Shown: piece after piece, positions 2,200 to 33,398 of the stretch
Numbering within the stretch: position 1 is the first letter of the stretch
Layout: each line of letters begins with the position of its first letter
Source of the DNA: an uncultured bacterium
GTDB taxonomy: Bacteria; Bacillota; Clostridia; Lachnospirales; Lachnospiraceae
Assembly: GCA_947381965.1 (NCBI GenBank)
Contig: CANCXX010000007.1
Location: 54,042-118,041 of the forward strand
DNA length: 64,000 nt
Direction of reading: 5' to 3'
Translations under genes and position numbers: made by a program
The notes under the pieces: model-generated
What the model saw: only the letters and a program-made list of their open reading frames with translations
Database searches by the model: none
Told to the model about the DNA's origin: nothing

Positions 2200-2245
2200 T
2201 AAATAAAGTTAGGCTGCCCCTATAGCGGCGGAATGGGAGAACAGA

Positions 2246-3196: not shown

Positions 3197-3198
3197 GT

Positions 3199-3229
3199 AT
3201 TATTGGTATAGTATTGCAGGGGCATAAAC
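3199..3229 (+). repeat. Short variant of the hairpin/Shine-Dalgarno repeat
   Basis: It reads ATTATTGGTATAGTATTGCAG then GGGCATAAAC before the gmhA ATG. The outer ATTGG and GCAGGGG-ATAA boxes of the family are kept, but the central palindrome is missing, as if deleted. Assignment rests on the boxes only. Confidence 0.4.
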
Positions 3230-13686: not shown

Positions 13687-14157
13687 ATGGGGGCATTTAT
13701 GAAAAATCAAATACTGGAATTTTTAAATGAATTGCATAAAAATCAGGAAAAGTATTTAATTTTAGCGGCTGTGGATGACAATGCAACTTCCGGCACAGAT
13801 ATGGAAATTTTGCAAGCGCTAAATGATGTTGGATTTTCGTTGAAACGTGCACCAGGCAAATCTTATATTGCAGTTTTAAATGGCAGGCAAATCATATATG
13901 AAAAGTTTGAAGATATGGTATTAATTTATACCGGGACAGTTGATGGGGTCAGGATCAAAATCACTTCTGCGGGATATGAGTCAGGAAAATTCTTTTCAAA
14001 TATATGGGTAGGAGGAGAGAAACTTGGAATAAGCAGAAAACGGGGATTGACTATTGCGCTTATTAACCGGAAAACAGGAAAATTATCAGACTGGATAAAG
14101 ATGGATATATTTTTGGGAAAAAATGAAATTATCCAGAGAAAGGAAAGTGTGAAATGA
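13687..14157 (+). CDS. Stand-alone ILEI/FAM3-like domain protein
   Basis: A 156-residue protein that is essentially one domain, paralogous to the C-terminus of the preceding gene: AAVDDNATSGT here against CVVDDNARSGV there, then a central G-rich strand region, RGLTIALIN against RGLSMIIFD, and a shared KMDIF ending. The pattern resembles interleukin-like EMT inducer (FAM3) domains, which in bacteria accompany glycan enzymes and are thought to bind carbohydrate. It ends with a 4-base ATGA overlap with the next gene. A second in-frame ATG at 13699 is an alternative start. Function is inferred only. Confidence 0.6.
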   Translation: MGAFMKNQILEFLNELHKNQEKYLILAAVDDNATSGTDMEILQALNDVGFSLKRAPGKSYIAVLNGRQIIYEKFEDMVLIYTGTVDGVRIKITSAGYESGKFFSNIWVGGEKLGISRKRGLTIALINRKTGKLSDWIKMDIFLGKNEIIQRKESVK

Positions 14158-15506: not shown

Positions 15507-16064
15507 ATGAATAATTTTATGATTTACCTGATAGGAACCAGTGGAAGTGGGAAAACAACGCTGGGAAATGCACTGGAACAGGAATTGCGACGCATGGAAT
15601 ATAAACATTTGCAGTTTATTGACGGAGATGTGATACGCAGACAATTCGGCGGCATTTTTGGCTATACCTATGAAGAGAGAATGCGTTGCAGCCAGGCAGT
15701 GAATGTTGTTATTAAATATCTGTTGGATAATCAGATATCTGTTATCCTTGCACAAGTGGGAGCCTATGAAAATATGAGACAAAAGGTCAGAGATATGGCT
15801 GGAAACCATTATATTGAGGTTTACGTAAAATGTTCCTATGAAGAGTGTGCAAGAAGGGATGTAAAGGGGTACTACCAAAGACTGCAAAAAGGAGAAATGG
15901 AAAACTTAAACGGTGCAAATGATATTTTTGAAGTCCCCGAAAGCAGTGATATTGTGGTTGAGACCGAAATTGAGACGGTGGAGGAATCTGTAGGGAAGGT
16001 AATGGGATATCTGAAGGAAAAAGGATATCTGGAAATTTGTATGGAAAGTGAAATTAGATTATGA
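15507..16064 (+). CDS. Adenylylsulfate-kinase-like P-loop kinase
   Basis: About 185 residues with the Walker A motif GTSGSGKTTL at residue 10, FIDGDVIRRQF (Asp and Arg as in APS kinase) and RMRCSQAVNVV, matching the APS kinase family CysC. No sulfate-activation genes are adjacent. In glycan loci such proteins may phosphorylate another small alcohol or sugar rather than adenylylsulfate. The start at 15507 uses the GGGGG of the upstream repeat; ATG 15492 lies inside that repeat and is unlikely. It overlaps the LicC-LicA-like gene by 4 bases (ATGA), suggesting a shared pathway. Confidence 0.72.
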   Translation: MNNFMIYLIGTSGSGKTTLGNALEQELRRMEYKHLQFIDGDVIRRQFGGIFGYTYEERMRCSQAVNVVIKYLLDNQISVILAQVGAYENMRQKVRDMAGNHYIEVYVKCSYEECARRDVKGYYQRLQKGEMENLNGANDIFEVPESSDIVVETEIETVEESVGKVMGYLKEKGYLEICMESEIRL

Positions 16065-17647
16065 ATGCAATAATTTTAGCGGCAGGAAAGTCCTCCCGTC
16101 TTGCTCCGCTTACCTATGAAAGGCCTAAAGGATTATTCCGTGTAAAAGGTGAAATCCTGATAGAACGTCAAATAGAGCAGCTGCAGGAAGCCGGGATAAC
16201 TGAAATTTATATAGTAGTTGGATATATGAAAGAAAAATTTTTTTATCTGGAGCAGAAATATGGAGTGAGGCTGCTGGTAAATAACAAATTTGCGGCACAG
16301 GGAAACTTGTATTCCTTATATGTTGCAAGAAAGTATCTTTCGGATACCTATATCTGTTGTGCGGACCATTATTTTGTGAAAAATCCATTTGGAGAAGTAA
16401 ATGATGCCAACATATCATACAGAGCCTGCTCCTGCCAAAAAGGAAAATTTAGGGAGTTTGCTGTAGAATATTCCGATGCGTCTGTAATTACCGGGTTTGC
16501 CGTGGGCGGGACAGATGGCATGGCAATGGTGGGACACGCATATTTTAACTCCGCTTTTTCTGGAAGATTTCGCAATTTTATGGAAAAAGAAATTGATGAC
16601 TTTGGCGTGAGCAATATGTTTTGGGAAGAATTTTATGCAAGACATCAAAAAGAATTAACCCTCTATATGAAAGAATATCAGAGGCAGGATATTCTGGAGT
16701 TTGAAAGCATAGAAGATTTACGGCAGTTTGATTCGGAATTTTTAATTAATGTGGATTCAGAAATTATAACGAATATTTGTACAATCATTCATTGCGAACC
16801 GGAACGGATTATGGATATTCAGGTGATTCAGGCAGGGCTTACAAATGTGTCTTTTATGTTTTCAGTGGATGGCGTTAAGTATGTATACAGACATCCGGGA
16901 GGGACAGCCGGGAACCTTATAGACCGGCAGGCGGAATTTTTTGCACAGACTAAAGCAAAGGAGCTGCAGATAGATAAATCCGTGATTTATCTGGACTTGT
17001 CAGGATGGAAGATTTCTTATTTTGTTCCTAATCTTACAGAATGCAGTTTTGAAGAAAATCCCGGACAGCTGGAAAAGGGAATGGAATATCTAAGAAAAAT
17101 GCACAGTGTTAAGGTAGACGTTCCCATTAAGCGGTTTGATACGGTTGCAGAAGGGAAGAAGCTGATGGGAATTGCATCCTCTTCTAAAGGAAATCTATTT
17201 GCCGAGTTTGCTGTTGTAATTGAAAAAATTGAAGAATTAAATGAATATGTGGAATCGGATGCAAAGAGACTTGGAATAGAAAAAGCACTTTGCCATAATG
17301 ATGCGTATGAGCCAAATTATCTGGCAACTTTGGACGGAGATTTATATCTGATTGACTGGGAGTATGCCGGGATGAATGACCCAGCTAATGATGTGGCATG
17401 TATTCTGTGCCGTAAGGATTACACAAAAGAGCAGACAGAAAAGTACCTGGAAGCATATTTTGGACGTAAGTTGACGGAAGACGAACACAGACATTATATT
17501 GCATACATAGCTCTTTGCGGTTTTTATTGGTTTTGCTGGGGCCTGTATAAAGGCAGCGTGGGCGATGACGATGGCTTTTTTTTCCTGCCCGCATACAGAA
17601 ACTGCATCCGATATCTGGATGCGGCATTGGAGAGTTATAAGAGATAA
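16061..17647 (+). CDS. Fused NTP-transferase and choline/ethanolamine-kinase-like protein (LicC-LicA type)
   Basis: A 528-residue fusion. Residues 1-235 are a nucleotidyltransferase (IILAAGKSSRLAPLTYERPK, the signature loop with the catalytic Lys; later CCADHYF). Residues 245-525 are a choline-kinase-like phosphotransferase with the Brenner motif LCHNDAYEPN (His and Asp near 412 and 414) and LIDWEYAG. LicC and LicA in other bacteria activate choline as CDP-choline for glycan decoration, and fused forms occur. The likely product here is CDP-choline, CDP-ethanolamine or a similar CDP-amino alcohol. No LicD-type transferase is recognised in the window, so the transfer step is unassigned. It is coupled to the APS-kinase-like gene by an ATGA overlap. 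Confidence 0.8.
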   Translation: MNAIILAAGKSSRLAPLTYERPKGLFRVKGEILIERQIEQLQEAGITEIYIVVGYMKEKFFYLEQKYGVRLLVNNKFAAQGNLYSLYVARKYLSDTYICCADHYFVKNPFGEVNDANISYRACSCQKGKFREFAVEYSDASVITGFAVGGTDGMAMVGHAYFNSAFSGRFRNFMEKEIDDFGVSNMFWEEFYARHQKELTLYMKEYQRQDILEFESIEDLRQFDSEFLINVDSEIITNICTIIHCEPERIMDIQVIQAGLTNVSFMFSVDGVKYVYRHPGGTAGNLIDRQAEFFAQTKAKELQIDKSVIYLDLSGWKISYFVPNLTECSFEENPGQLEKGMEYLRKMHSVKVDVPIKRFDTVAEGKKLMGIASSSKGNLFAEFAVVIEKIEELNEYVESDAKRLGIEKALCHNDAYEPNYLATLDGDLYLIDWEYAGMNDPANDVACILCRKDYTKEQTEKYLEAYFGRKLTEDEHRHYIAYIALCGFYWFCWGLYKGSVGDDDGFFFLPAYRNCIRYLDAALESYKR

Positions 17648-17662
17648 AAAGGGGATATTGCC

Positions 17663-18403
17663 ATGAATGTAGCCATTATTCTTGCTGGTGGGAGCGGTAC
17701 ACGGATGAACATGGAAAAACCGAAACAGTTTATAGAAGTAATGGGGAAGCCCATTGTGGTCTATACAGTTGAAGTATTTCAAAGTCACCCGGAAATTGAT
17801 GAAATTGAAATTGTATGTGTTGAAGAATATATGGATTATATGGAAGAGCTGGTAGAAAAGTATGGACTGACCAAAGTGCGACGGATTGTAAAAGGGGGAG
17901 CAAATTTCCAGTACTCTGTCATAAATGGGATTGCAGGTATCAGGGAAAAAATGTGTTCGGAAGATATTGTACTGGTGCACTATGCTGCGTCTCCTTTTGT
18001 CAGTGGTGAAATTATTTCGGATGGCATACGTGTGGCAGGGAAAAAAGGAAATGCAGCCTCTGCAACTCCCTGCTTTTTGCTGATGGGGACTAATGATGAT
18101 GGAAGAAAGTCCACAAAATGGGTGGATAGGGATAAATTGATGCAACTGAACAGTCCCCAGTGTTTTCAGTTTGGCTATATAGAGCAACTGTATGAAAAGG
18201 CTGGAAAAAGGCACCTGCTGGATAAGGTTGAACCTCACACAACCAGTTTGATGTATGCAATGGGAGAAACCATCTATTTCTCAAAGGGCAATCAGACAAA
18301 TATCAAAATAACTACCAAAGAAGATTTGGAATTGTTTGAAGGATATGTGCTGATGAAACAGGAAAAGTGCAGGTTAACACATGTAACCGTACCATTTTTT
18401 TAG
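17663..18403 (+). CDS. IspD/TarI-family cytidylyltransferase
   Basis: A 246-residue enzyme with the nucleotide loop ILAGGSGTRMNMEKPKQF at the N-terminus, VKGGANFQYSVINGI and VHYAASPFV in place of the HDAARPF motif of IspD. These fit the IspD/TarI group, which makes CDP-methylerythritol or CDP-ribitol. With CDP-glycerol-transferase-like genes in the locus, CDP-ribitol or another CDP-polyol is the likelier product, and the changed HYAASPF motif also argues against housekeeping IspD. The start follows GGGG at 8 bases. Substrate is inferred from context only. Confidence 0.72.
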   Translation: MNVAIILAGGSGTRMNMEKPKQFIEVMGKPIVVYTVEVFQSHPEIDEIEIVCVEEYMDYMEELVEKYGLTKVRRIVKGGANFQYSVINGIAGIREKMCSEDIVLVHYAASPFVSGEIISDGIRVAGKKGNAASATPCFLLMGTNDDGRKSTKWVDRDKLMQLNSPQCFQFGYIEQLYEKAGKRHLLDKVEPHTTSLMYAMGETIYFSKGNQTNIKITTKEDLELFEGYVLMKQEKCRLTHVTVPFF

Positions 18404-21400: not shown

Positions 21401-21867
21401 TTATCTATAAAGAACATCCTTTGATGAATGCAATAGATAGGACCAGGAATAAAAAAGACTTACCGAAGAATGTACATATTATATCAGATATTAATATTAA
21501 TGAGTTAATAGATGTAGCGGATGTTGTTTTATGCATGGTGTCAGGTTTGACTTATGTATCAATAGTAAGAGGTAAACCGCTTGTAGAACTTGCTTATACC
21601 CCACTGCGGGGAAAGGGATGTTCCTATCAGGCACATTGTTTAAAAGATGTTGAGGCTAAAATAAAGGAGGCACTTGATATGGGGCTATCACAAGGGCAGA
21701 AGAAAGCCTTTATTAAGCATGTAGCTCAGGTTAATAAATATTATTATTATGATGATTTATGTGCAAGGCCAGTCAGATATGGGAAGTCAATTATTGATGC
21801 CATGAAGATAATAGAAGGAGTAGATAGATATGAAGATTGTAGCCTGGGTACCTATAAAATTAAATAA
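18418..21867 (+). CDS. HAD hydrolase - COG5610 domain - glycan transferase-like fusion
   Basis: About 1149 residues in three parts. Residues 1-230 are a HAD domain (VVSFDVFDTLL with the nucleophile Asp, IIISDMYF, and VHIGDNKKSDVDCA with the metal Asp). Residues 250-600 resemble the first gene of the window (VWRDGYLPSK, FDRSPRGKSS). From about 720 a Rossmann-like part resembles capsule or CDP-glycerol-type transferases (LVWNNWGKNS, KEHPLM, LCMVSGLTYVSIVRGKPLVEL). ATG 18418 is 10 bases after AGGAGG; the frame is open to an ATG at 18367 inside the previous gene. Codon use is strongly AT-rich, like the two genes after it, suggesting a different origin from the flanks. Biochemical role is unknown. 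Confidence 0.7.
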   Translation: MNIDYYNNKFSEGVNSILDDILNPQIKVVSFDVFDTLLFRPVSTPADTFRLLENKLKIPNFHNMRVAAEQEARKKQDPGLEDITYEDIYSAFQKMFGYGEDEIKIIKEEEKKLEYQFLYERKTAKFLYNCACMSGKRIIIISDMYFNSEFIDSCLKKNGYNRHSKVYVSSETGMTKTSKKMFNYVLYILAKDGIKPDEVVHIGDNKKSDVDCALGCGMRARHLPKPADIRNSCIHLKKLYGYVLSDVMNSNNAMLYGFLANLYFDDPFVDYDKKSFFNGDPSLMGYWFAPLMMGFTLWLNKKIEENKVEQFIYVWRDGYLPSKLIEIVRPYLADRKVEFKKLYMGRTLRMPYMANEKNGLFNSFFDYPLREEYTVDYFIKNRLLCNDEKQKNDILKIFYRHGYIDEREAIGNVQKYRGFLHELEPYFIENAKKKTELTSEYISQVVKKGKKTAVFDRSPRGKSSRFLKQYFGINSVCYTTEVYDVPTAKLKDINLEIESYLEYGMYYINKMGRIWAMLFERIISDTAPGYAYVEKSKEGQITVVLDDEPTEQEVILANALIADVQNSIIRYIEELSNILGDYLRDFVIDRQGVFDYTIEFLSTPGECDALLVTQISPDKSSLAPIDENTFSNWYEKKFDNSYKNKKSESRALLPANVKQTRWDRIRNTGYMITEKWGIRIPVQSLYHFITRKSIPEDYRVRQVESDVDNYIMRLTQGFNDIDVLIIGSVPREMARFINSLSREDENKKYLFVAAGFMKMPDFFSFPCLEAPKVFSFWGIDWQKEIIRVPERMKKLVEHKSYLRDLVEKRVLSGYSKSVAILIAYEAERYYEALIRELSPKCLLVWNNWGKNSVVPSVLAREKGINVVSMERGFLEGTVMLSRYGYGDDLINREVETFCHLEVTDEECCFAQKIIDYQRKSGLNRYTQPTSNGIDKLKEKLIPENPIVLLLGAFDLENPGFPMNDETKKKYSPIFRTSKDAMLYIAKIACKNKWNFIYKEHPLMNAIDRTRNKKDLPKNVHIISDININELIDVADVVLCMVSGLTYVSIVRGKPLVELAYTPLRGKGCSYQAHCLKDVEAKIKEALDMGLSQGQKKAFIKHVAQVNKYYYYDDLCARPVRYGKSIIDAMKIIEGVDRYEDCSLGTYKIK

Positions 21868-22489
21868 TCAGAGACTTCCTGGCAAAAATATAAAATTACT
21901 TGCCGGAAAACCGCTCTGTAATTATATGCTGGAAACTTTAGGACAGATTATGAATGTGGATGAGATATATGTTTATTGTTCAGATGAGAAAATTGTTTCT
22001 TATCTGCCAGAAGGAGTTAGATTTTTAAAAAGACCGCAAAGGCTGGATGGAGCACTGATAGAACACTATGAGATAGTTGAAAATTTTATAAATGAAGTAA
22101 ATGCAGATATATATATTAATGCACATGTCACTAATCCATTTGTTAAAAAAGAAAGCATTGAACTTGGACTGGAAAAGGTGCTTGGAGAAGAATATGATTC
22201 TGCACATACAGTACAACGTCTAAATAAACCTTTATGGTATCATGGTGAACCATTTAATTTTACCAGAACAAAAATGTTTAGAAATCAGGATATTGATCCA
22301 ATGTTTATTGATATGAATCTTTGTATTTACAGAAAAGAGGTATTTACAAAGTACCACTCACGATATGGGAAAAATCCTTTTTTTATAGAAATTAGCCCTA
22401 TAGAGGCAATTGATATAGATTATCCGGAAGATTTTATTTTTGCTGAAACCATGTATCAATCGTTTTTAAAAAAGGGGGAATTTATTTGA
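21830..22489 (+). CDS. Acylneuraminate cytidylyltransferase-like (CMP-sugar synthetase)
   Basis: A 219-residue member of the NeuA/KdsB fold: VAWVPIKLNNQRLPGKNIKLLAGKP carries the Arg and Lys of the nucleotide loop, and IDIDYPEDF near the end matches the C-terminal metal/acidic motif of NeuA. It starts inside the last 38 bases of the previous gene after a GGAG site and overlaps the following aldolase by 4 bases (TTGA). That tight coupling suggests that the aldolase and this enzyme make and activate the same 2-keto sugar acid or related compound. The activated molecule is not known. Confidence 0.75.
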   Translation: MKIVAWVPIKLNNQRLPGKNIKLLAGKPLCNYMLETLGQIMNVDEIYVYCSDEKIVSYLPEGVRFLKRPQRLDGALIEHYEIVENFINEVNADIYINAHVTNPFVKKESIELGLEKVLGEEYDSAHTVQRLNKPLWYHGEPFNFTRTKMFRNQDIDPMFIDMNLCIYRKEVFTKYHSRYGKNPFFIEISPIEAIDIDYPEDFIFAETMYQSFLKKGEFI

Positions 22490-24120
22490 AAAATGTAAAA
22501 GTACTTGATTGTACGTTAAGAGATGGAGGACGAATTATAAATTGCAATTTTCAAAATCCCCAAATTCATAGAATGATATATAATATGCAAAAATCTGGTT
22601 TGGATATTATAGAAGTGGGATTTTTAAGAAATAAATGGGATACAGATTTTAATGGAAATAGTACATTTTTTACGGATGTTAAGCAAATTACTCCGTATAT
22701 TCCCTCTGACAGAGTTTCACAATTTGTTGCATTCATTGATTTAGGGATGTTTGATTTTAGTACATTAAGTGAATATGATGGAACATCGGTTGATGGAATT
22801 AGGTTGGGATTTACGAAGAAAGATCTGACAGATTCCATAGATGCGCTTTTGGATAGTTCAAAATTGATTAAAGAAAAAGGGTATCGTTTGTTTCTTCAGG
22901 GAGTAAATTCTTTAAATTATAGTGATATGGAATTGTTAGAGCTGATTCAAATAGTAAATAAAATTGAACCATATAGTTTTGGCATTGTAGATACATACGG
23001 CGCAATGTATGTAGATGATGTCCAGCGACTTTTTACACTTATTGACCATAATTTAAATATGGATATAGCTGTCGACTTTCATTCACATAATAATATGCAA
23101 TTGTCATTTTGCCTTGCACAGGAAATTATTATGTTATCAAATGGGGTCAGAAGCGTGATAATCGATGGGACATTGAGAGGGATGGGGAAAGGAGCAGGAA
23201 ATGCCAATACAGAGCTGATTATCAATTATTTGAATCGAAAGAAGGGGTATAAATATGACCTTGAGGGAATATTGGAAATAATTGATTTAGAATTATTTGA
23301 CCTTTTTGAAGAGTATCATTGGGGATATTCACCAGCAAGTTTTATGGCGGGAGTTTATAAATCGCATCCTAATAATATAACATATCTGCTTGAAAAGTAT
23401 AAATATGATACAAATGATATAAGGCACATATTATCACAACTATCTGATTCAGAACGGGAACGGTATAATTATGAAAAAATAGATTTACTTTGTGAAGATT
23501 ATAAATATAAAGACTACAATGATATATCAGCAATCAATCAGCTGATAGATATTATTGGAAATAAAGATGTGTTAGTTCTTGCTCCAGGTAAATCTATTTC
23601 TTTACATTCGGAACGTATTTTTTCATATGTTTCCCAAAATGCGCCTGTTATATTTTCTGTAAATTTTATTATAGATAGTATGGTTATTCCATTTTTTGGA
23701 AATAAAAAAAGGTATTCTGCTTTTATTTATGATAAGAAAATTCAGTCTTTGGTAACATCAGATATTGCAAATAATTTTGATTTTGAGATAGTTATTTCGT
23801 CAAAGCGTATGAAGTATTTATGCCAATATAAGAAAGGTGTATTTCAAAGCAGTTTATTTAAGTTGTTGAATTTACTTGCAGCGTTGAATGTAAAACATAT
23901 AGCAGTTGCTGGAATGGACGGATATACCGATAGAGAGAAAGATAATTATTATGTTGACAGTTTTTATGTAAAAAGAACAGCACAGGAAACAAAAAGTACA
24001 AATGATCGATTACAAAATGAATTAAAGATGTTTATAAGTAGGTGGAGCAATACATGCAAACTTCAGATAATTACACCATCTATTTATTGTATTGAAAGTG
24101 CTTATCAAGTTGGAGAATAA
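22486..24120 (+). CDS. DRE-TIM aldolase fused to a possible sialyltransferase/DUF115-like domain
   Basis: A 544-residue protein starting with TTG at a 4-base overlap, GGGGG upstream. Residues 1-300 are an HMG-CoA-lyase/isopropylmalate-synthase-type TIM barrel: VLDCTLRDGGR opens the domain, DFHSHNNMQLS carries the metal-binding His pair, and GTLRGMGKGAGN the C-terminal loop. These enzymes join or cleave 2-keto acids. Residues 355-540 form a second domain (VLVLAPGKSISLHSERI, IAVAGMDGY) with the glycine-proline loop seen in DUF115 and GT42 sialyltransferases; this match is weak and is my inference. Together with the CMP-synthetase gene, it could make and handle an ulosonic-acid-like sugar. The aldolase assignment is firm, substrate unknown. 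Confidence 0.7.
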   Translation: MKNVKVLDCTLRDGGRIINCNFQNPQIHRMIYNMQKSGLDIIEVGFLRNKWDTDFNGNSTFFTDVKQITPYIPSDRVSQFVAFIDLGMFDFSTLSEYDGTSVDGIRLGFTKKDLTDSIDALLDSSKLIKEKGYRLFLQGVNSLNYSDMELLELIQIVNKIEPYSFGIVDTYGAMYVDDVQRLFTLIDHNLNMDIAVDFHSHNNMQLSFCLAQEIIMLSNGVRSVIIDGTLRGMGKGAGNANTELIINYLNRKKGYKYDLEGILEIIDLELFDLFEEYHWGYSPASFMAGVYKSHPNNITYLLEKYKYDTNDIRHILSQLSDSERERYNYEKIDLLCEDYKYKDYNDISAINQLIDIIGNKDVLVLAPGKSISLHSERIFSYVSQNAPVIFSVNFIIDSMVIPFFGNKKRYSAFIYDKKIQSLVTSDIANNFDFEIVISSKRMKYLCQYKKGVFQSSLFKLLNLLAALNVKHIAVAGMDGYTDREKDNYYVDSFYVKRTAQETKSTNDRLQNELKMFISRWSNTCKLQIITPSIYCIESAYQVGE

Positions 24121-24265: not shown

Positions 24266-24697
24266 GTGATACTGCAAAAAATAGTAACACCTGGCAATAG
24301 AAAAGGCTGCGATGAGATATACATTCGCTCATCGAATTTAATCTGTAAGCAAAATAATCTGCTGTTTATTCCCAAAGGCGGAAATGTCAGTACGGATACA
24401 TATATGAATGCCTTTGATATTGGGGCATGGAAAAAGTATACGGATATTTCAGGCTTGCTGCTTGTGTGGAAATTTAAAGGACAGGGAACCATGAAAGTCA
24501 TTTGGGAAAGGGAGAAAGAAGGCGCGGTCTGCCTTGGGGAAAAGCTGATTGACAGCAGAGAAAATGGCTTTGACGGACTAAAATACGATTTTGATAACTG
24601 GAATGAAATGTCAGAAGGTTTGCTGTATTTTATTTTTTCCGCTTTAGAGGATACATCTCTGGAAGCCTGGTTTGAAGAGCGGGGGGGGGTAAAATGA
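24266..24697 (+). CDS. GlfT2 N-terminal beta-sandwich-like domain, separate from its GT2 domain
   Basis: A 143-residue protein starting with GTG after AGGAG. It resembles the N-terminal domain of galactofuranosyltransferase GlfT2-type proteins: an early basic strand, PKGGNVSTDTYMNAFDIGAWKKYT, and alternating hydrophobic strands (LLLVWKFKGQGTMKVIW). In such proteins this domain is normally joined to a GT2 domain. Here it ends ERGGVK-stop because of a G9 run, and the GT2 gene starts at the overlapping ATGA. One added G would make a single protein of about 487 residues, the size of GlfT2-like enzymes. It may be a real split gene, a phase-off state, or a run-length error. Confidence 0.7.
   Translation: MILQKIVTPGNRKGCDEIYIRSSNLICKQNNLLFIPKGGNVSTDTYMNAFDIGAWKKYTDISGLLLVWKFKGQGTMKVIWEREKEGAVCLGEKLIDSRENGFDGLKYDFDNWNEMSEGLLYFIFSALEDTSLEAWFEERGGVK
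24681..24689 (+). repeat. G9 homopolymer at the GlfT2-like domain junction
   Basis: Nine consecutive G lie within the last codons of the N-terminal-domain gene and 4 bases before the ATG of the GT2 gene. With nine G the upstream frame reads CGG GGG GGG GTA AAA TGA and stops. With ten it reads through as CGG GGG GGG GGT AAA ATG ACG and fuses the two frames exactly. The run also serves as the ribosome binding site of the downstream gene. Confidence 0.85.
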
Positions 24698-25728
24698 CGA
24701 GGGAAATAAAAATTTCTCTGGTTATATGTACTTATAAACGCAGGAAGCAATTGCAGCAGATTCTTAATATGCTTCAAAAGGAAAACGAGAGAGAAAAGTG
24801 GAATGACTGGCTTCAGGTTATAGTAATTGACAACGCTTCTGAGCTGGAGGCGGGTTATGGTGATGGAATTTCTATTTATCATAACCGGAACACAGGGGGA
24901 AGCGGAGGATTTGGCCGTGGAATAGACATAACTATAAAAAGAATGGATGTTTTTCCAACTACCCATGTGGTATTTATGGATGACGATGTGGTCCTCCAGA
25001 TGGAAAGTTTGCGCCGGCTATACGCTTTTTTGTCTTTTATGAAGGAAGAATATGCACAGGAAGTTATTGCCGGAAGAATGTTTGGCATGGACAGGCCCTG
25101 TATGCAATATACGGCGGCTGAGGTCTGGAATAAGGGAGATATCCGTCATATCGGGGGAAATCAGGATATGACAAAGCGGCAATTCATCTGGCATATGAAT
25201 GAGAATGAGGGCGGTGAGTATGGGGGATGGTGGTTTGCCTGTTTTCCTGTAGAATTTGTAAAGGAAAACAGACCTTTGCCTTTTTTTCTCCATTGCGATG
25301 ATGTGGAGTATGGGCTGCGGCATGGGGGAACCCCTGTTATTTTAAATGGAATTCAGGTGTGGCATGAAATATATGAATACTGGAAAGCGCCGGTGCTGGC
25401 ATACTATGACAGCAGAAACCGGGCGTTAGTGAACCATCTTTACGGACTGTGTGACAAGGAGGAAATTTTAAACCACTGGATAAAAAACATATCATTTTAC
25501 CATGTGCGCAGGGAATATACCATGGAATATTATGCAATTATAGGTTTTCTTGACTTCTTAAAAGGAATGGAATGGGCCGGCAGGATAGATGCGGGAAAGT
25601 ATCATGAAAAGCTAAGGCGTAAAAAAGGAAACAGGGTTAAGAATGCTTTGATGTGGCGGCTGGCAAAGGCATTTTTTCGGATAAATTATTCCCGGACCTT
25701 TTGGGGGAGCGGAAGCAAAAATGGATAA
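24694..25728 (+). CDS. Galactofuranosyltransferase GlfT2-like GT2 domain
   Basis: A 344-residue GT2 enzyme: ISLVICTYKRRKQLQQIL, VIDNASELEAG, NTGGSGGFGRG (the glycine-rich segment typical of rhamnosyl- and galactofuranosyltransferases), VFMDDDV metal motif near residue 95, and a WWFACFP...HCDDVEYGLR acceptor/base region. It resembles the catalytic part of GlfT2. The normal N-terminal beta-sandwich is encoded by the overlapping upstream gene. Transfer of a furanose sugar is suggested by family and by the mutase-like flavoprotein at 14154. ATGA overlap and the G run suggest translational coupling. Confidence 0.82.
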   Translation: MTREIKISLVICTYKRRKQLQQILNMLQKENEREKWNDWLQVIVIDNASELEAGYGDGISIYHNRNTGGSGGFGRGIDITIKRMDVFPTTHVVFMDDDVVLQMESLRRLYAFLSFMKEEYAQEVIAGRMFGMDRPCMQYTAAEVWNKGDIRHIGGNQDMTKRQFIWHMNENEGGEYGGWWFACFPVEFVKENRPLPFFLHCDDVEYGLRHGGTPVILNGIQVWHEIYEYWKAPVLAYYDSRNRALVNHLYGLCDKEEILNHWIKNISFYHVRREYTMEYYAIIGFLDFLKGMEWAGRIDAGKYHEKLRRKKGNRVKNALMWRLAKAFFRINYSRTFWGSGSKNG

Positions 25729-25757: not shown

Positions 25758-28727
25758 ATGAAATTTAAAGTCAATGCAGTTATCGTAACCTGTAACCGCT
25801 GCGATTTGTTAAAGCAGTCCTTAAAAAGTTTGCAGGAACAGGTCTATGCGCTTAATAAAATCATAGTTGTAAACAATGCAAGCACAGACGGCACAAAGTC
25901 TTTTCTGGACAGTATCAGGGATAATCAGATTATTATACTGCAAAGAGAAGTGAATGAAGGCGGTGCAGGCGGATTTTATCATGGCATAAAAAAAGCTTAT
26001 GAGATCGGATGCGATTTTGTGTGGATGATGGATGATGATACGATTGCATCGCCGGAAGCGCTTAAGAATTTAATGGAAGGTTACGCCATATTGGATGGAA
26101 GAAATATTGGATTTCTGGCAAGCAATGTATTTTACAAAGATGGCGCGCCCTGTTTTATGAATATCTGCCAGACCGATTATGTCTGGAATGAGTTTGCCGC
26201 AGAGGGGATTGTAAGAATTTCCCATTGCTCTTTTGTTGCAATGCTGGTTCCCTCATGGGTAATAAAAGAGATCGGATTCCCAATAAAAGAGTATTTTATC
26301 TGGGGAGATGACGGGGAGTATTCCACAAGAATTTTAGGAAAATATGAGGGATATCTGTGCGGAAAAAGTGTTGTTTACCATCACATGAATGAAAATATTG
26401 GCGTTGATATTTGGAATATTGAAGCAAAGAGAATAGACCGCTTTTTTTACTTTTATCGCAACTGGATGTGCACGTACAGGATGCGGGATGAAACGGCAGC
26501 AAGGAAGTTTAAGAAGGATGCAAAGCTCCTGATTAAGGAGATAAGAAAAAGCAACACAAGCAATAAGTATAAAAAGATAAAGGTAATAAAGAAAGGAATA
26601 CGTGCAGGAGAGCAATTTAATGTGGAAATAGAATACCCTGCAGGAAATCAGAAGACGGAAACAGAAGAGGGGAAAGGCAGGGGAGTCCGATATCGTGCTT
26701 TTCGGATTTTCCGTTACTTTGCAATAAAGTATGATATAAAAACCAAAGGGTATGTGACTTATTGTAAGGAACTTTATCAGAGATTTATAAAACTTAACCC
26801 AGGGAAAACAGAAAAGGCCAGGTTTTTGCTTTGGGGAGGAATAAAGACGAAGCTATATGATTCCGGTGATAAAATTAAAGATATTGAAATGCTTTTACAT
26901 GAAGCAAAATACAGATTCTGCCTGTCGGATTACTTCGCTTATGGCATTGATGTATATAAGACATGGAAAATAAAAGGCAGGCAAATGGCTAACTGTGCAA
27001 TAGATTATGATATTTTGGTGAATCATTCTCTGAAAGATTTGCGGATGGAAGAGAAGGGAAGCGCGTTTGAGAGGCAAAACAATGAGCTTGCGGATATTCT
27101 GGACAATTATTGTAAACGTCTGGCGGAAAAAGTAAGAAAAAGCGGTCTTAAAAATCGAAAAAATATTACAAAATGGCTGGAAAACATTTCTTCTGGTCCG
27201 GCTTTATCTCTGGAAGAAGCTTTGCAGAGGATACTGCTTATGAATCAGCTTATGTGGCAGACAAGGCATATACAGATGGGGCTGGGAAGGCTGGATTTGC
27301 TGTTGGAGCCATTTGTAAGCGAGGGTATGACAGAGGAATATCTGGAAGATGTTCTGGGTGACTTTCTCAAAATACTTCATAATTATTACTGGTTAAAAAG
27401 TGAAGAGATGCCGGGAGATACGGGACAGATAATTATTCTTGGCGGATGGGGGCCGGATGGAAAATATGTATGCAACAGGATTACTTATGCGGTTATCCGG
27501 GCAATCAAAAAGCTTCAGCTGCCAGATCCGAAGGTGCTTCTGCGTGTTGCGTCAGATACACCTGTTAAATTATGGGGACTTGCTGTGGACTGTATAGCCA
27601 CAGGATTAGGATGTCCTTTGATTTCAAATGATGAGAGAGTGGTGCCTGCCCTGACAGAATTTGGGTATGATCAGAAGGATGCATATAATTATGTAACTTC
27701 AGCCTGCTGGGAAATTATACCGGGAAACTGCTGCGAGCAGAATAACATTGGCGTTTTTGATTTTGCCGCCGCCTTTGATTTGATGGCAAAAAAAGATGAT
27801 TTGGATGCGCTGGACACCTGGGAGAAATTTATCAGCCAGTACAGTGTTCATCTGTGTGGGCATGTGAAATATATGATACATTTACCTGATTATATTTTCT
27901 GGGAAAAGGATCCGCTGATGAGCTTTTTTTGTTATTCTTGTCGCAGAAAGCAAAAAGATATTGCTGATGGCGGTGGTAAGTATAATAATTATGGCATTTT
28001 ATCAGTGGGACTTTCCAACACAGTAAATTCGCTTATAAACATAAGACGTTATGTCTATCAGGAAAAACGATTTACTTTAAGGGAATTGTATACCATGCGC
28101 AATCAGAATTTTTGCGGCAGTGAAGAGATATACCAGTTACTGAAGAACAGCAAAAAATATTTTGGTGAAGATACGGAAAAGGAAGATGCCATAGGATTAA
28201 CAAACTGGCTGCTGATGAAGGTAAATGAGACTGTGGCAGGCTACCGGAATATTTTTGGCGGCAGGGTGAAATTTGGTTTAAGTTCACCGGGATATATTAT
28301 TATGGGGAGAAATAATACGGCAACATTTGACGGACGTCTGGACTATGAGCCATACAGCATACATATTTCTGCGGACGATAATCAGAATATTACCGCGCTT
28401 TTAAATTTTGCCTCAGCTTTAAAATATGGAGAGTCAGGATTTAATGGAAATGTTGTTGACTTTACCATGAATCCACAGTTTATTGCACAGAATCGGGAAA
28501 AGTTTATCAGCTTACTGCGTGCAGCCGTAAAAAGCGGGGTTTTTCAGATACAGATGAATGTGATAAGCAGTGAAATGCTGTTAAAGGCGAAGGAGCATCC
28601 TGATAAATATCCGAATCTGATAGTCAGAGTATGGGGATTTTCCGCCTATTTTAAAGATTTGCCGGAAGAGTACAAAGACTATGTGATAGCAAGGGCAATA
28701 AAATCAGAATGCACTGCGGGGGTATAA
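25758..28727 (+). CDS. Fusion of a GT2 glycosyltransferase and a glycyl radical enzyme
   Basis: A 989-residue open frame with two unrelated catalytic parts. Residues 1-270 are a GT2 domain (NAVIVTCNRCDLLKQSL, VVNNASTDGT, NEGGAGGFYHG, WMMDDDT with the metal Asp at 92-94). Residues 310-425 are a charged linker I do not recognise. Residues 425-989 are a PFL/glycerol-dehydratase-type glycyl radical enzyme: GLGRLDLLLEPF, CPLISNDERVV, the thiyl-radical site TSACWE (Cys650, Glu652 as in the dehydratase/lyase CxE motif), and RVWGFSAYF with the glycyl radical at Gly960. The 310-residue Cys-to-Gly distance fits PFL-type enzymes. The radical module is shorter at its N-terminus than the usual 750-850 residues. 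The next gene is its activase. Reaction unknown; both domains are clear. Confidence 0.88.
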   Translation: MKFKVNAVIVTCNRCDLLKQSLKSLQEQVYALNKIIVVNNASTDGTKSFLDSIRDNQIIILQREVNEGGAGGFYHGIKKAYEIGCDFVWMMDDDTIASPEALKNLMEGYAILDGRNIGFLASNVFYKDGAPCFMNICQTDYVWNEFAAEGIVRISHCSFVAMLVPSWVIKEIGFPIKEYFIWGDDGEYSTRILGKYEGYLCGKSVVYHHMNENIGVDIWNIEAKRIDRFFYFYRNWMCTYRMRDETAARKFKKDAKLLIKEIRKSNTSNKYKKIKVIKKGIRAGEQFNVEIEYPAGNQKTETEEGKGRGVRYRAFRIFRYFAIKYDIKTKGYVTYCKELYQRFIKLNPGKTEKARFLLWGGIKTKLYDSGDKIKDIEMLLHEAKYRFCLSDYFAYGIDVYKTWKIKGRQMANCAIDYDILVNHSLKDLRMEEKGSAFERQNNELADILDNYCKRLAEKVRKSGLKNRKNITKWLENISSGPALSLEEALQRILLMNQLMWQTRHIQMGLGRLDLLLEPFVSEGMTEEYLEDVLGDFLKILHNYYWLKSEEMPGDTGQIIILGGWGPDGKYVCNRITYAVIRAIKKLQLPDPKVLLRVASDTPVKLWGLAVDCIATGLGCPLISNDERVVPALTEFGYDQKDAYNYVTSACWEIIPGNCCEQNNIGVFDFAAAFDLMAKKDDLDALDTWEKFISQYSVHLCGHVKYMIHLPDYIFWEKDPLMSFFCYSCRRKQKDIADGGGKYNNYGILSVGLSNTVNSLINIRRYVYQEKRFTLRELYTMRNQNFCGSEEIYQLLKNSKKYFGEDTEKEDAIGLTNWLLMKVNETVAGYRNIFGGRVKFGLSSPGYIIMGRNNTATFDGRLDYEPYSIHISADDNQNITALLNFASALKYGESGFNGNVVDFTMNPQFIAQNREKFISLLRAAVKSGVFQIQMNVISSEMLLKAKEHPDKYPNLIVRVWGFSAYFKDLPEEYKDYVIARAIKSECTAGV

Positions 28728-28729
28728 GC
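28714..28729 (+). promoter_or_regulatory. 3' box of the hairpin repeat used as ribosome binding site
   Basis: CTGCGGGGGTATAAGC lies across the stop codon of the glycyl radical fusion and immediately before TTG 28730. It matches the 3' ends of the repeats at 48788 and 48863. The GGGGG is 7 bases from TTG, which decides the start of the activase gene. Confidence 0.55.
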
Positions 28730-29590
28730 TTGGACCCGTTAATTACAAATATTCAGAGGTTTTGCGTTCATGATGGGCCGGGAATCCGTACAACAGTGTT
28801 CTTTAAAGGGTGTTCTCTTCACTGCCCCTGGTGTGCAAATCCTGAAAACATAAAGAAGGAAAAACAGTTTTATTTTATAGCGGAGCGCTGCATGGAGGCC
28901 TGCAGCCGGAGAGAGGCGTGTAATGCCTGGCAGGGCGGAAAAGAGCTGGAGGAGACTCTGGAAAAGTGTCCCTATGGAGCGGTAGGGATTTTTGGACAGT
29001 ATTATACACCGGAACAGCTTTTAAATGAAATTCTTAAAGATGCTGCATATTTTCAGGATGGGGGAGGAGTTACTTTTTCAGGCGGGGAATGTCTGCTCTT
29101 TTTAAAAGAATATGACAGTTTAATTGAAAAACTACATCAGGCAGGTGTGTCCATATGTATTGAAACTGCGCTTTTTGTCTCTGAAGATATGCTGAAGTGG
29201 GCAGTCTGTCACGCAGACTATTTCTATGTTGATATTAAATCCCTGGAACCGGAGGTCTGCGGGAAGGTGCTTGGAGGAAATCTGGAAAGGTTTTTGAAAA
29301 ATCTGGAATACCTGTATGCAAGGGTTCCCAGTGAGAAGATTGTATACCGGGTTCCTCTGGCAGAGGGTGTAACGCTGAGCGCTTCAAATATTATGGAAAT
29401 CGGCAGACTGATTTGCCGTTTCCCGCCGAAACATGTTGAAATATTCAGTGTACATAATCTTGGGGAGAAGAAGTACGAACGGCTGGGGGAAAATTATAAA
29501 AGGTATCCTACAATTGATACTGAGCAGTTAAATAAGGTCAGGGATTATTTTTCACAGGCAGGAATAAAGTGTACAGTTAATCTGCTATAG
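28730..29590 (+). CDS. Glycyl-radical-enzyme activating enzyme (radical SAM, PflA family)
   Basis: About 286 residues. It installs the glycyl radical on a partner enzyme, here surely the fusion encoded directly upstream. Visible are IQRFCVHDGPGIRTTVFF, the radical-SAM cluster motif CSLHCPWC (CX3CX2C), and GGVTFSGGECLL (the GGE region). Between residues 48 and 80 there are four Cys (CMEACSRREAC and KCPYGA), a reduced form of the two-ferredoxin insert seen in dehydratase-type activases. I chose TTG 28730, preceded by GGGGG, because the conserved domain begins there; ATG 28709 lies inside the previous gene. Translation is probably coupled to the fusion gene. Confidence 0.88.
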   Translation: MDPLITNIQRFCVHDGPGIRTTVFFKGCSLHCPWCANPENIKKEKQFYFIAERCMEACSRREACNAWQGGKELEETLEKCPYGAVGIFGQYYTPEQLLNEILKDAAYFQDGGGVTFSGGECLLFLKEYDSLIEKLHQAGVSICIETALFVSEDMLKWAVCHADYFYVDIKSLEPEVCGKVLGGNLERFLKNLEYLYARVPSEKIVYRVPLAEGVTLSASNIMEIGRLICRFPPKHVEIFSVHNLGEKKYERLGENYKRYPTIDTEQLNKVRDYFSQAGIKCTVNLL

Positions 29591-29604
29591 AAACATAATT
29601 TACT

Positions 29605-29650
29605 ATTGGTGCAGTATCGCAGGCATTGCCTGTCATATGCGGGGATAAGG
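29605..29650 (+). repeat. Hairpin/Shine-Dalgarno repeat, clear copy A
   Basis: It starts with ATTGGTGCAGTATCGCAGG. The arms GCAGTATCGCAGGCA and TGCCTGTCATATGC form an imperfect palindrome, and the element ends TATGCGGGGATAAGG before ATG 29651. The GGGG is the ribosome binding site of the acyltransferase gene. Confidence 0.7.
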
Positions 29651-30757
29651 ATGATTAAAATGGGTAAAAAAATTGAGGATATTATTGTTGATACAATTTC
29701 CCATAAGGCGAAAGGACGGAAGCTGGTTTTGTGGGGAGGATGGGAGAAGGATAATCAATTATGTGAACATATTCTAAAGAATTTCGAGGATAAATTTGCC
29801 TTCTTTGTGACGGTGACGGCTTCTCTTATCAGAAAAGATACGCCTGAAATAAGGCATATCTTTGAAATAAATAACAGAAGCAACGATTTCTATATTGTTG
29901 TATTTCCACAAGAGACGGATAAGTCCAATGAGATGTTCCGGTCCTACGGTTATGGAATGAATGATGTGTTTTATATCCACCACAAGCCAATTGTGGTAAC
30001 GAAACAGTATCAGGATGAGTGGGGCAATTGTGTTTCCCAGCTTCCGGGTAAGTGTCAGGTGATTCTTGAGGGATATGGAAACCAGGTGGAGATGGGCCAG
30101 GTAGAGATAAAAAAGTCTCTGCGTATTATTTGTGGAAATAACTGTAAGGTAAGCGTGGAAAATCAGGTGGTGTTTGAAGATGATTTCAGAATCATTGCCA
30201 GGGAACTGAAGGCAGGAGAGTCCTGCGAGCCGGTTTTGGATATTGGGGATAACTGTAAGCTTTTTGACGGTAGAATAGGACTGTATGGCGGGGAGTTACA
30301 TATAGACAATAACTGTACATTTGGAAATAATGCCTGTTTTTCAGCGGGCCATGGTATGAAAATAACAATAGGAAGAGACTGCATGTTTTCCCATGATGTA
30401 TGGGTGCTTTGCGGTGACGGACATTTAATTTTTGATTGTATCACCCGGCAGCCGATTAATTCACAAAGTAGGCTTCCGGCAAATAAAAAAGAAATTAAAA
30501 TTGGAGAGCACGTGTGGGTTGGACTGCGGACGGTTATTTTAAATGGAACAGAAGTTGGGAACGGATCAGTGATTGGCGCTGGAAGCTTTGTGAAAAAGAG
30601 TTATACCAATAACTGTATGGTTGTGGGGAATCCTGCAAGGGTGATAAGAAGAAATATTGCATGGAGCCGCCAGCCGGTGGATGAAAACATCGCGCTGTGT
30701 GGGGAAGAGTATATCAATCTCAGTATGGAAGGGATTAGCGGGAATGAATGTATGTGA
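29651..30757 (+). CDS. Hexapeptide-repeat (left-handed beta-helix) acyltransferase
   Basis: About 368 residues. From residue 150 to 340 there are many short hexapeptide-type turns (IDNNCTFGNNACFSAG, ITIGRDCMFSHDVWVL, IGEHVWVGLRTVILNGTEVG, GSVIGAGSFV, VVGNPARVIRR), the pattern of O-acetyl and related sugar acyltransferases. The N-terminal 140 residues (KLVLWGGWEKDN) resemble a sugar-binding or Rossmann-like domain and are not assigned. It probably acetylates a sugar of the glycan, using acetyl-CoA, in the cytoplasm. ATG 29651 follows GGGG at 6 bases; a TTG at 29606 lies inside the repeat and is rejected. Confidence 0.8.
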   Translation: MIKMGKKIEDIIVDTISHKAKGRKLVLWGGWEKDNQLCEHILKNFEDKFAFFVTVTASLIRKDTPEIRHIFEINNRSNDFYIVVFPQETDKSNEMFRSYGYGMNDVFYIHHKPIVVTKQYQDEWGNCVSQLPGKCQVILEGYGNQVEMGQVEIKKSLRIICGNNCKVSVENQVVFEDDFRIIARELKAGESCEPVLDIGDNCKLFDGRIGLYGGELHIDNNCTFGNNACFSAGHGMKITIGRDCMFSHDVWVLCGDGHLIFDCITRQPINSQSRLPANKKEIKIGEHVWVGLRTVILNGTEVGNGSVIGAGSFVKKSYTNNCMVVGNPARVIRRNIAWSRQPVDENIALCGEEYINLSMEGISGNECM

Positions 30758-33398
30758 AAGGGTAAAAAGGTGTTATGGGTGCGGCGCCTGTGAAAACATA
30801 TGTCCCTTTGGCGCGGTAAGCGTGAAGGCGGATGCGTCTGGCTTTCTGAAGGCGGTTATTGACAAGGAAAAATGCACAGACTGCGGGAAATGTCTGACAG
30901 CATGTCCACAAATAATAAATTCTTTTGAAAATACTGCCCAGCCGGAATGCTATGGGGCATGGGCGGAAGATGATATCAGATGTAAATGCGCATCAGGAGG
31001 AATTTATACTGCCATTGCCCGTGAAATGATTCAAAGGGGCGGATGGATTGCCGGTGTAGTTTGGAAAAAAGATTTCAGAACAGGATTCATCCTGACGAAA
31101 ACAGAGGAAGAGTTAGGACAGATAGGGGGCAGTAAATACGTTCAGAGCGCCATGGGAAAAACATATTTACAGATAAGGGAAAAGCTTGAAAAGGGAGAGC
31201 AGGTCTTATTTTCAGGATGTCCCTGTCAGGTGGCAGGGCTTTTTTCTTTTTTGGGAAAGAAATACGATGGACTATATACAATCGATCTAATCTGCCATGG
31301 CGTGTCTTCGTCAAAAGTACTGGTTAAATATCTGCAGGATGAATATGATTACCCCAAAATAGAAAGGATTGATTTTAGAGATAAAACCGTATTTGGCTGG
31401 TCAACAGAAATGAACGTGTATTTTACGGATGATGTGCCGATACGGAAAAGAGCTTCGGAGGATTCTTTTTATAAGGCTTTTTTAAATAATATGTGTCTTA
31501 ACAGCGTTTGTGAAGAGTGCCAGTTTTCAAAGCTTCCAAGACAAGGGGATATCAGTCTGGGGGATTTTTGGAATATAGAAAAATATGATCCCGGATTAAA
31601 TGATAGAAAAGGGACTTCTCTTGTACTGATAAATAATGAGAAAGGGGAACAATTATTTCACGACTGCAAACTGATTGTTAAAAAGGAAAAGATTCCCTTG
31701 ACATTTGTCCGTCAGACCTGTAACCGTACGGTATTTGAGCCTTTCAGACACCATTATGCAAGGGACAGATTTTTCCGGGAGTTTTCCAATAAAAAGTTTG
31801 ATACGGCCGTAAACATGTGTCTCACATTTCATTATGATATTGGTCTGGTTACTACCTGGTTTGCCAGAAACTTTGGAGCTATATTTACTGCCTGGGCCTT
31901 ATATAAAAAGCTGGAAGAAATGGGCTACAGTGTATTAATGATAAACAAACCAAAAGAATTATGGGAAACGGATTATTTTTCGCCAGACAGAAACCGGATA
32001 GCCCTTGACTTTGGCAGAAGAAATTATAATTTAAGCAAAGAATATGGGGTAAATCAAACGCCGGAGCTGAATCTTTTAAACAACAGCTGTGATATTTTTA
32101 TGCTGGGTTCAGACCAGCTATGGAACCCTAAAATATATGCCCATATGTATTATTTCTTTTTAGATTTTGTTACGGGGAGACATAAAAAAATATCTTATGC
32201 CACATCAATAGGAGCGGACCATTTTGAGGGAACGGAAGATGATAAATATGTAATTTCTTATTTGTTAAGCCGTTTTGATCAAATATCGGTAAGGGAAATT
32301 GAGGCGGTCAGAGTGTGTGAAGACACATTTGATTTTCATCCGGCACAGGTATTGGATCCGGTGTTTTTGCCGGACGATAAAATGTTTAATAATATGGCGG
32401 ACAGTGTGGAAAAGAATATAGCGGGAGAATTTATTTTTGCTTATATTCTTGACGGCAACATTGAAAAGAGAAACTTGATTAATCAGGTGGCAGAAAAATA
32501 TCGTCTGCCAGTCTGGTGCGCTTATGATATTGAACATCCTGAAATGTCCAGGCATTATTTACAGCTGAAAGAAGCTGATATAAAGAAACCGGAGGACTGG
32601 CTGTGGTATATAAAAAACAGCAGATATGTAATCACCGATTCCTATCATGGAGGATGCTTTTCAATTATTTTCCACAAGAAATTTATATGTATTGCAAATG
32701 CGTTGCGGGGAAAGGGCAGATTTCAGGAGCTTTTGGGGAAGCTGGGACTGGACAGGCATTTGATAACTGATTTGGAGAGTAACAGCATTAAACGTGTAAT
32801 CTCATTGATAGATGATTTTAACTACAGCAAAGCAGATAAAATTTTAAAAAGAGAAAAGGAACGTTCACTTCACTGGTTAAAAACCAGTCTTGCAATGCCC
32901 AAAGAGCAAAAAATGTCATCCGGGGAATATGCGGCGGAAATGCTATTACCCCAGGTAGACAAAATGAATAAGGAAATAAATGACATTAAGGAAAAAGTAA
33001 GTTGCCTGAATGTGTATGGAGATATCTGGCAGCTTGGCTTATCAAAAGGCTGTAAGGTGCAGGATATTATTGACAAATTGCCGGATAATTCTTACTTCCA
33101 GCAGGTTCAGGGGAGCCTGGGAAGTCCGGTGGCAGATACCCCGGTGCCCTATGGTGTGCTGACCATTAAAAGAACCACCGATTATTTTGTTGAAGTCCAG
33201 TTTGTACAGATGACATACAGCTCAAAAAAGCCACAGATATATATTGCAAATGTAGTAAATAAAAAAATAGCAGCATGGGAGCAGTTTGTAAGTTTGAAGG
33301 AATACGATGAAAGGATAGAAAAAATAGAAAAAGAATTTGAAATAACAGCAAATAAATTAAGCGAACTGGAGAAGAAAATAAATATTTTAAACCAGTAA
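30744..33398 (+). CDS. Fe-S/FrhB-like domain fused to polysaccharide pyruvyl transferase
   Basis: About 884 residues. Residues 1-60 carry two 4Fe-4S ferredoxin motifs (CYGCGACENICP and CTDCGKCLTACP). Residues 65-370 resemble the F420-hydrogenase/dehydrogenase beta subunit (CASGGIYTA, GCPCQVAGL, DLICHGVSS, GDISLGDFW). Residues 385-740 are a pyruvyl-transferase fold (FGAIFTAWAL, LGSDQLWNP, SYATSIG, ITDSYHGGCFS). A coiled-coil tail follows. It presumably adds or processes a pyruvyl ketal on the glycan. The start overlaps the previous gene by 14 bases. FrhB-like proteins with pyruvyltransferases are common in anaerobe glycan loci as separate or fused genes; what the redox half does is unknown. 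Confidence 0.8.
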   Translation: MNVCERVKRCYGCGACENICPFGAVSVKADASGFLKAVIDKEKCTDCGKCLTACPQIINSFENTAQPECYGAWAEDDIRCKCASGGIYTAIAREMIQRGGWIAGVVWKKDFRTGFILTKTEEELGQIGGSKYVQSAMGKTYLQIREKLEKGEQVLFSGCPCQVAGLFSFLGKKYDGLYTIDLICHGVSSSKVLVKYLQDEYDYPKIERIDFRDKTVFGWSTEMNVYFTDDVPIRKRASEDSFYKAFLNNMCLNSVCEECQFSKLPRQGDISLGDFWNIEKYDPGLNDRKGTSLVLINNEKGEQLFHDCKLIVKKEKIPLTFVRQTCNRTVFEPFRHHYARDRFFREFSNKKFDTAVNMCLTFHYDIGLVTTWFARNFGAIFTAWALYKKLEEMGYSVLMINKPKELWETDYFSPDRNRIALDFGRRNYNLSKEYGVNQTPELNLLNNSCDIFMLGSDQLWNPKIYAHMYYFFLDFVTGRHKKISYATSIGADHFEGTEDDKYVISYLLSRFDQISVREIEAVRVCEDTFDFHPAQVLDPVFLPDDKMFNNMADSVEKNIAGEFIFAYILDGNIEKRNLINQVAEKYRLPVWCAYDIEHPEMSRHYLQLKEADIKKPEDWLWYIKNSRYVITDSYHGGCFSIIFHKKFICIANALRGKGRFQELLGKLGLDRHLITDLESNSIKRVISLIDDFNYSKADKILKREKERSLHWLKTSLAMPKEQKMSSGEYAAEMLLPQVDKMNKEINDIKEKVSCLNVYGDIWQLGLSKGCKVQDIIDKLPDNSYFQQVQGSLGSPVADTPVPYGVLTIKRTTDYFVEVQFVQMTYSSKKPQIYIANVVNKKIAAWEQFVSLKEYDERIEKIEKEFEITANKLSELEKKINILNQ

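Follow-up and report, generated by a model that had tools for sequence, protein, structure and literature searches.

A glycosyltransferase fused to a glycyl radical enzyme in a surface-glycan locus and a family of relatives with a putative role in glycan assembly

Glycyl radical enzymes (GREs) are so far known from fermentation, nucleotide reduction and small-molecule breakdown, and the question addressed here is what such an enzyme might do when it shares a single reading frame with a glycosyltransferase inside a surface-glycan locus. The stretch of DNA analysed (the window) comprises 64,000 nucleotides from an uncultured member of the Lachnospiraceae. On its forward strand, positions 25758..28727 form a stop-free open frame of 989 codons that encodes a GT2 domain and a complete GRE module. 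The frame had been described, with its motifs, in an earlier reading made without database searches (the sequence-only reading), and its coordinates proved exact: the metal-binding Asp residues D92-D94, the C650-W651-E652 motif and the R957-V-W-G960-F motif all lie where they had been placed. Pfam profiles matched the fused protein above their gathering scores at residues 8-107 (Glycos_transf_2, E 2.6e-19), 449-842 (PFL-like, PF02901, E 7.5e-56) and 874-965 (Gly_radical, PF01228, E 1.7e-15), the latter two bearing out the proposed GRE assignment. The GT2 module corresponds to residues 1-300 (25758..26657, + strand) and the GRE module to residues 305-989 (26670..28727, + strand), the latter carrying a basic N-terminal segment, the predicted thiyl residue Cys650, Glu652 and the predicted glycyl residue Gly960. 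The sequence-only reading had let the GRE start at residue 425; the module in fact begins near residues 310-340, so that the stretch from 270 to 425 is mostly GRE and not linker. A scan of the frame found no ATG between the ATG codons 242 and 378, so that no internal start site suggests itself for a GRE translated on its own; alternatives in the same interval are two GTG codons (289 and 333) and one TTG codon (357).

Relatives were collected by a scan with a ten-member alignment, which yielded 158 members confirmed by tblastn. The best 80 of these 158 were kept and gave 79 loci, to which the window was added (80 loci). The same GT2-GRE architecture, which the sequence-only reading had proposed to look for in other genomes, was found in L055 and L057, giving three loci with the same order of parts. 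The L055 protein (988 aa) is 62-63% identical to that of the window, and its contig is the one that, as G349 (L008/L033), gave the sole other full-length fusion in the scan of host-family genomes, whereas the L057 protein comprises 1017 aa and is encoded on a contig labelled Thermoplasmata. Elsewhere, the two parts were found as separate adjacent frames (GT2 of 314 aa and GRE of 666 aa in G250/L034) or with a free-standing GT2 that shares 55-56% identity with the fused module and stops 1 and 16 nt upstream of the GRE frame (L083 and L090), indicating that the fusion joins two neighbouring genes. A tree built by a quick search, with no bootstrap, grouped the fused GREs of all three loci with the stand-alone GRE of L056 (SH-aLRT 97%). 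A different fusion was present in L039 (10910-13150; same gene in L118), where a protein of 746 aa combines an N-terminal glycosyltransferase-like part, matched by a GlfT-like profile, with a C-terminal GRE activase.

The window is part of a 118 kb contig in a draft genome of 4.3 Mb (92 contigs, listed contamination 7.31%), both other fusions stem from MAGs, and the GRE frame of one relative (L040/L132) is interrupted, all of which would fit an artefact of sequencing or binning or a degenerating pseudogene. However, the same fusion occurs in L055 and L057, which makes a frame break unlikely, the key residues are kept, and stand-alone relatives are found in isolate-named records, including the complete genome L099. 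An artefact is thus hardly credible; the fusion of GT2 and GRE is confirmed as real, lies in a surface-glycan locus and has its catalytic residues intact.

The loci derive from Lachnospiraceae, Oscillospiraceae, Bacilli, Synergistota, Eggerthellaceae, Methanobrevibacter and one Thermoplasmata contig, among others, so that the 80 loci cover Bacillota, Synergistota, Spirochaetota, Actinomycetota and archaea. Most are MAGs, and the archaeal loci are all uncultured-type records; the Spirochaetota member resides in the complete genome of Breznakiella homolactica. The four Methanobrevibacter rows formed one clade with 100% support (quick tree, no bootstrap). Members were detected in 11 of 397 host-family genomes below E 1e-100 and, in a phylum search with a different query and limit, in 1 of 398 genomes (that of the window) at E 1e-150. 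A scan of genome contigs with a single protein as query gave no match, and plasmid records contained only GREs with less than 60% identity, none with 80% query coverage.

An alignment of 77 members (one GRE per locus; three of the 80 GREs, with fewer than 600 residues, were left out) contained C650, W651, E652 and G960 in 77/77 and W959 in 76/77 sequences. The active-site Cys and the C-terminal glycyl loop in a PFL-like barrel place the module in the GRE superfamily, and its predicted fold matches known GREs. With Glu652 two residues past the Cys, all 77 members have the Cys-x-Glu motif, which marks GRE eliminases and may be shared by decarboxylases.

In 74 stand-alone GREs, some of them cut by contig ends (e.g. 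L075 and L078), the N-terminal 45 residues had a mean net charge of +7.2, with 53/74 at +6 or above, as against means of -1.2 to +2.1 and 7/250 proteins at +6 or above in eight further protein families encoded in these loci. The remainder of the GRE is slightly acidic. By the same count, values of +5 and +1 were obtained for PflD and YbiW, respectively, and of -5 to +4 for ten GREs of a sister clade. In the fused protein, the counterpart of the basic stretch comes after the GT2 module. This basic, partly amphipathic start would be compatible with peripheral binding to the membrane. The basic segment is missing in 11 relatives (-3 to +4) that form a subclade with a small neighbour protein; this Rossmann-like protein (121-149 aa) is encoded directly upstream of the GREs concerned (L060, L101, L103, L106, L107, L111, L112, L113, L118 and L128). 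Two glycan loci each harbour two GREs of the family (L068, 361-2394 and 9917-11950; L088, 3-1310 and 9944-11971), which suggests a different substrate for each enzyme.

None of the NCBIfam GRE models reached its cut-off with the window protein or the three relatives tested. The model for PFL2/glycerol dehydratase (TIGR01774) gave 223.2 bits against a cut-off of 678.2 (relatives: 246.6, 238.2 and 282.4), that for the hydroxyproline dehydratase HypD (NF043068) 159 against 1100 (relatives: 204.8, 162.2 and 186) and choline_CutC (TIGR04394) 161.6 against 1050, and the sulfopropanediol model also remained far below its cut-off. By the choline_CutC score, the CutC-like choline chemistry raised as an option in the sequence-only reading is unsupported, while its proposal that the radical module acts on a sugar or polyol stands as a plausible role. 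Glycerol/1,2-propanediol dehydratase and CutC share the fold and the Cys-x-Glu motif with the GRE module, but the glycerol dehydratase residues His281/Ser282 and His164/Asp447, which we take to be pocket positions, are not kept in it (alignment with positions counted by hand).

The close solved relatives of the GRE module include PflD and YbiW (22-24% identity), which are longer (765 and 810 aa, respectively) than the stand-alone full-length members of the family (~640-705 residues). In the relevant passages of PMC12441222 (citing Ma et al. 2024), YbiW and PflD are described as acting on 1,5-anhydroglucitol-6-P and 1,5-anhydromannitol-6-P in PTS-linked catabolism. These anhydro-sugar phosphates were missing from the list of GRE substrates in the sequence-only reading; going by those passages, they provide a precedent for a GRE acting on a sugar ring, though in catabolism. 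PflD and YbiW also have no glycosyltransferase, whereas the family studied here is found in glycan loci. The columns of PflD His156 and Asp433 (His165 and Gly456 in YbiW) are occupied by Asn412 (74/77) and Asn663 (77/77), so that the leaving-group chemistry, and in particular its protonation, may differ; as a sequence feature, the Asn pair could also mean another reaction.

The sister clade (L043-L054) resembles the family in its ACWE, RVWG and GDxGQ motifs, its short length (~690 aa) and the presence of Asn in both PflD His/Asp columns (11/11). It also shares D554 and K592, which occur throughout the family and are absent from PflD and YbiW, but has RVWGW in place of RVWGF. Lys547, Val899 and Asp901 are restricted to the family and absent from PflD, YbiW and the sister clade. 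Two sister-clade loci examined encode LacI regulators, parts of an ABC importer, an aldo/keto reductase (AKR), an FGGY kinase and a DeoC-type aldolase and look sugar- or polyol-catabolic. Because of these two loci, the PflD/YbiW precedent as given in the passages cited and the glycan setting, a sugar is, by analogy, the likely substrate of the GRE.

In the window, the gene next to the fused gene, overlapping it by 19 nt, encodes a cognate GRE-activating radical SAM enzyme with a C-x3-C-x2-C motif (28709..29590, + strand; TIGR02494, 237.8 bits against a cut-off of 174.35). An activase profile matched in 72/80 loci, in 68 of them within 2 kb of the GRE; some of the eight loci without a match are cut short, but L071, L102 and L115 have long flanks. 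A Wzx flippase was found in 49/80 loci (47 within 2 kb of the GRE). Many flanks end at contig ends. Apart from the window, 36 loci have flanks longer than 9 kb on each side; activase, Wzx and Glf were present in 33, 25 and 15 of them, respectively. When one GRE-linked Wzx was compared with 397 host-family genomes, its best place was its own locus and the next five were GRE loci, indicating that this Wzx clade travels with the GRE. Within the DNA covered, no GRE-linked Wzx was seen in the three fused loci; an ABC-2 exporter adjoins the fused gene in L055.

Forty control loci were chosen from 78 Wzx places with GRE loci left out, and they represent one family, as against GRE loci that span phyla. 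GRE and activase were each found in 0/40 controls, which is largely a consequence of this selection and no independent proof. General neighbours were alike in both sets (GTa, 44/80 versus 19/40 controls; epimerase, 21/80 versus 16/40). The neighbour clusters C7 and C16 were mixed, having arisen from loose clustering, and were set aside even though C7 occurred in 14/80 versus 0/40 loci. In L035 (11038-11925), genes for the ribosomal proteins L7/L12 and L10 are located directly 5' of the GRE cassette.

The PF00535 domain (E 2.6e-19) with its Asp-rich metal site identifies the fused glycosyltransferase as a GT2 enzyme. It contains the motifs N66-x-G68-G69, D92-D94 and W182-G-D184, of which N66, G68, G69, D92-D94 and D184 are invariant among 28 aligned GT2 sequences, and its AF2 model had a mean pLDDT of 93.7. 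Searches with the module returned GalNAc-T2 as the top hit by E-value (Foldseek) and GlfT2 9nj0, tied with 6p61 (VIA-align); matching transferases of many sugars, these model-based comparisons do not decide the donor. The best NCBIfam model was GlfT1 (NF050113; 74.2 bits, cut-off 330), which ranked top for 7/7 GT2s tested out of the 28 aligned (64-101 bits), with the rhamnosyltransferase model TIGR01556 next in 6/7. The module thus differs from the galactofuranosyltransferases GlfT1 and GlfT2 both in scoring far below the GlfT1 cut-off and in being fused to a GRE.

These matches bear on the possibility that the GRE acts on galactofuranose, as UDP-Galf or as newly added Galf, and gives a 5- or 6-deoxy carbonyl sugar. 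The exocyclic C5-C6 diol of Galf resembles glycerol or 1,2-propanediol, GlfT1 leads the NCBIfam ranking, and GlfT2-type domains occur in L057 and in the window, where a Glft2_N-like domain protein (24266..24697, + strand; PF17994, E 2e-8) is possibly the partner of a second GT2 (24694..25728, + strand; Pfam match; blast relative in the L055/L033 locus, 46%) that is GlfT2-like by context only and stops 29 nt upstream of the fused gene. True Glf was found in 30/80 GRE loci versus 7/40 GRE-free Wzx loci, a modest excess (p 0.035), and in 27/49 Wzx-bearing GRE loci (p 0.0004). On the other hand, 50/80 loci have no Glf within the DNA covered, and Glf is present in 357/397 host-family genomes, so that its occurrence in 11/11 GRE genomes says nothing. 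The window itself has no true Glf, two copies being located elsewhere in the genome: the product of 14154..15458 (+ strand) is a flavin amine-oxidase family protein without a PF03275 match that reached 41 bits on the Glf profile, compared with ~625-633 for full-length Glf proteins. Given, in addition, the low GlfT1 scores, the proximity of TIGR01556 and the ambiguous fold matches, galactofuranose is an unlikely substrate. Because GRE loci served to train the GlfT-like profile, its count of 35/80 versus 5/40 is biased upward.

We give an even chance to the explanation that the family comprises anaerobic, glycan-tailoring GREs that act near the membrane and dehydrate a sugar or polyol unit in the precursor of a surface glycan, the enzyme of the window being joined to its partner glycosyltransferase. 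GRE eliminase chemistry, leading from a glycyl via a thiyl radical to hydrogen abstraction and C-O loss, is established, and the mechanism is drawn by analogy. The radical SAM activase from the adjacent gene would place a glycyl radical on Gly960, which would generate a thiyl radical on Cys650. The latter would abstract a hydrogen atom from a carbon that bears a hydroxyl group in the sugar or polyol unit; Glu652 would accept a proton, and the adjacent C-O bond would be lost (1,2-elimination) with return of the hydrogen. The resulting deoxy-keto or deoxy-aldehyde sugar would remain in, or enter, the surface-glycan precursor, and the reaction would take place at the membrane face, alongside the GT2 enzyme and the flippase. 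Several results sit less well with this explanation: the genes around the GRE cassette vary greatly between loci, and no keto-product reductase recurring beside the GRE was recognised among the labelled neighbours (247 neighbour proteins are unlabelled). To these come the Asn pair in the PflD His/Asp columns, the eight loci with no activase match, the 11 relatives lacking the basic segment and the N-terminal charge of +5 in PflD itself. The computation itself yields the fused frame, the residues, the predicted fold, the activase gene and the recurring glycan-locus setting. The narrower prediction of an active GRE that takes part in assembling glycans is highly probable; elimination chemistry, sugar substrate and membrane position are what we infer beyond it.

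A GRE that does not act on a sugar but converts glycerol, a polyol phosphate or an amino alcohol such as choline into a small building block, for attachment by neighbours such as LicC-LicA, IspD or LicD, appears a little less likely still than action on galactofuranose. GREs classically act on small diols and choline, and the window encodes a nucleotidyltransferase/choline-kinase-like (LicC-LicA-like) protein (16061..17647, + strand) and an IspD-type cytidylyltransferase (17663..18403, + strand); an IspD gene is also present in L037/L106, together with a similar 506-aa protein recognised by eye only. Yet LicD is rarer in GRE loci (11/80) than in controls (16/40), IspD is no different (10/80 versus 6/40), and neither the choline_CutC, HypD and sulfopropanediol scores nor the unconserved glycerol dehydratase positions fit such substrates. 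That the GRE is a sugar lyase or PFL-like enzyme of catabolism or fermentation which has settled in glycan loci, supplying carbon or formate and having no bearing on glycan structure, seems improbable. While its fold and nearest named proteins are catabolic, as the two sister-clade loci appear to be, no sugar importer, kinase or aldolase was found among the labelled recurring neighbour clusters (many neighbours are unlabelled), and the Wzx partner, the GT2 fusion and the activase fusion of L118/L039 point to glycan assembly.

No description of a GRE in glycan assembly was found in the open-access literature, as covered by titles and abstract openings, subscription journals lying mostly outside it; the superfamily is known, but within the same scope the family, its coupling to a glycosyltransferase and flippase, and its likely role were not found described. 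If glycan tailoring applies, a GRE family for glycan building would extend radical chemistry to the assembly of capsules and wall glycans, and sugars so far absent from glycan analyses are predicted. More tentatively, and at somewhat less than an even chance, gut and rumen anaerobes and archaea may have a branch of surface-glycan biosynthesis that is radical-based and oxygen-sensitive, in which a dedicated family of membrane-associated GREs, physically coupled to GlfT-like glycosyltransferases and their own Wzx clade, would deoxygenate nucleotide- or lipid-linked sugars to deoxy-keto sugars made only in anaerobes. The role in glycan building is testable in cultured strains, e.g. Breznakiella homolactica and [Clostridium] aerotolerans.

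In the window, the activase gene is followed on the + strand by genes for a hexapeptide-repeat acyltransferase (29606..30757, from the first TTG) and an FrhB/FdhB-polysaccharide pyruvyl transferase fusion (30657..33398; relative in the L055/L033 locus, 34%). Upstream on this strand, a CMP-sugar-type cytidylyltransferase of the same locus (21830..22489; PF02348, E 1.2e-20) precedes an HMGL-like aldolase whose C-terminal part is unassigned (22486..24120; PF00682, E 1e-20), and the pair (21830-24120) possibly belongs to a keto-acid sugar pathway. At 1210-3793, consecutive genes for a GHMP kinase, an NAD-dependent epimerase and a SIS-domain protein resemble heptose-precursor genes.
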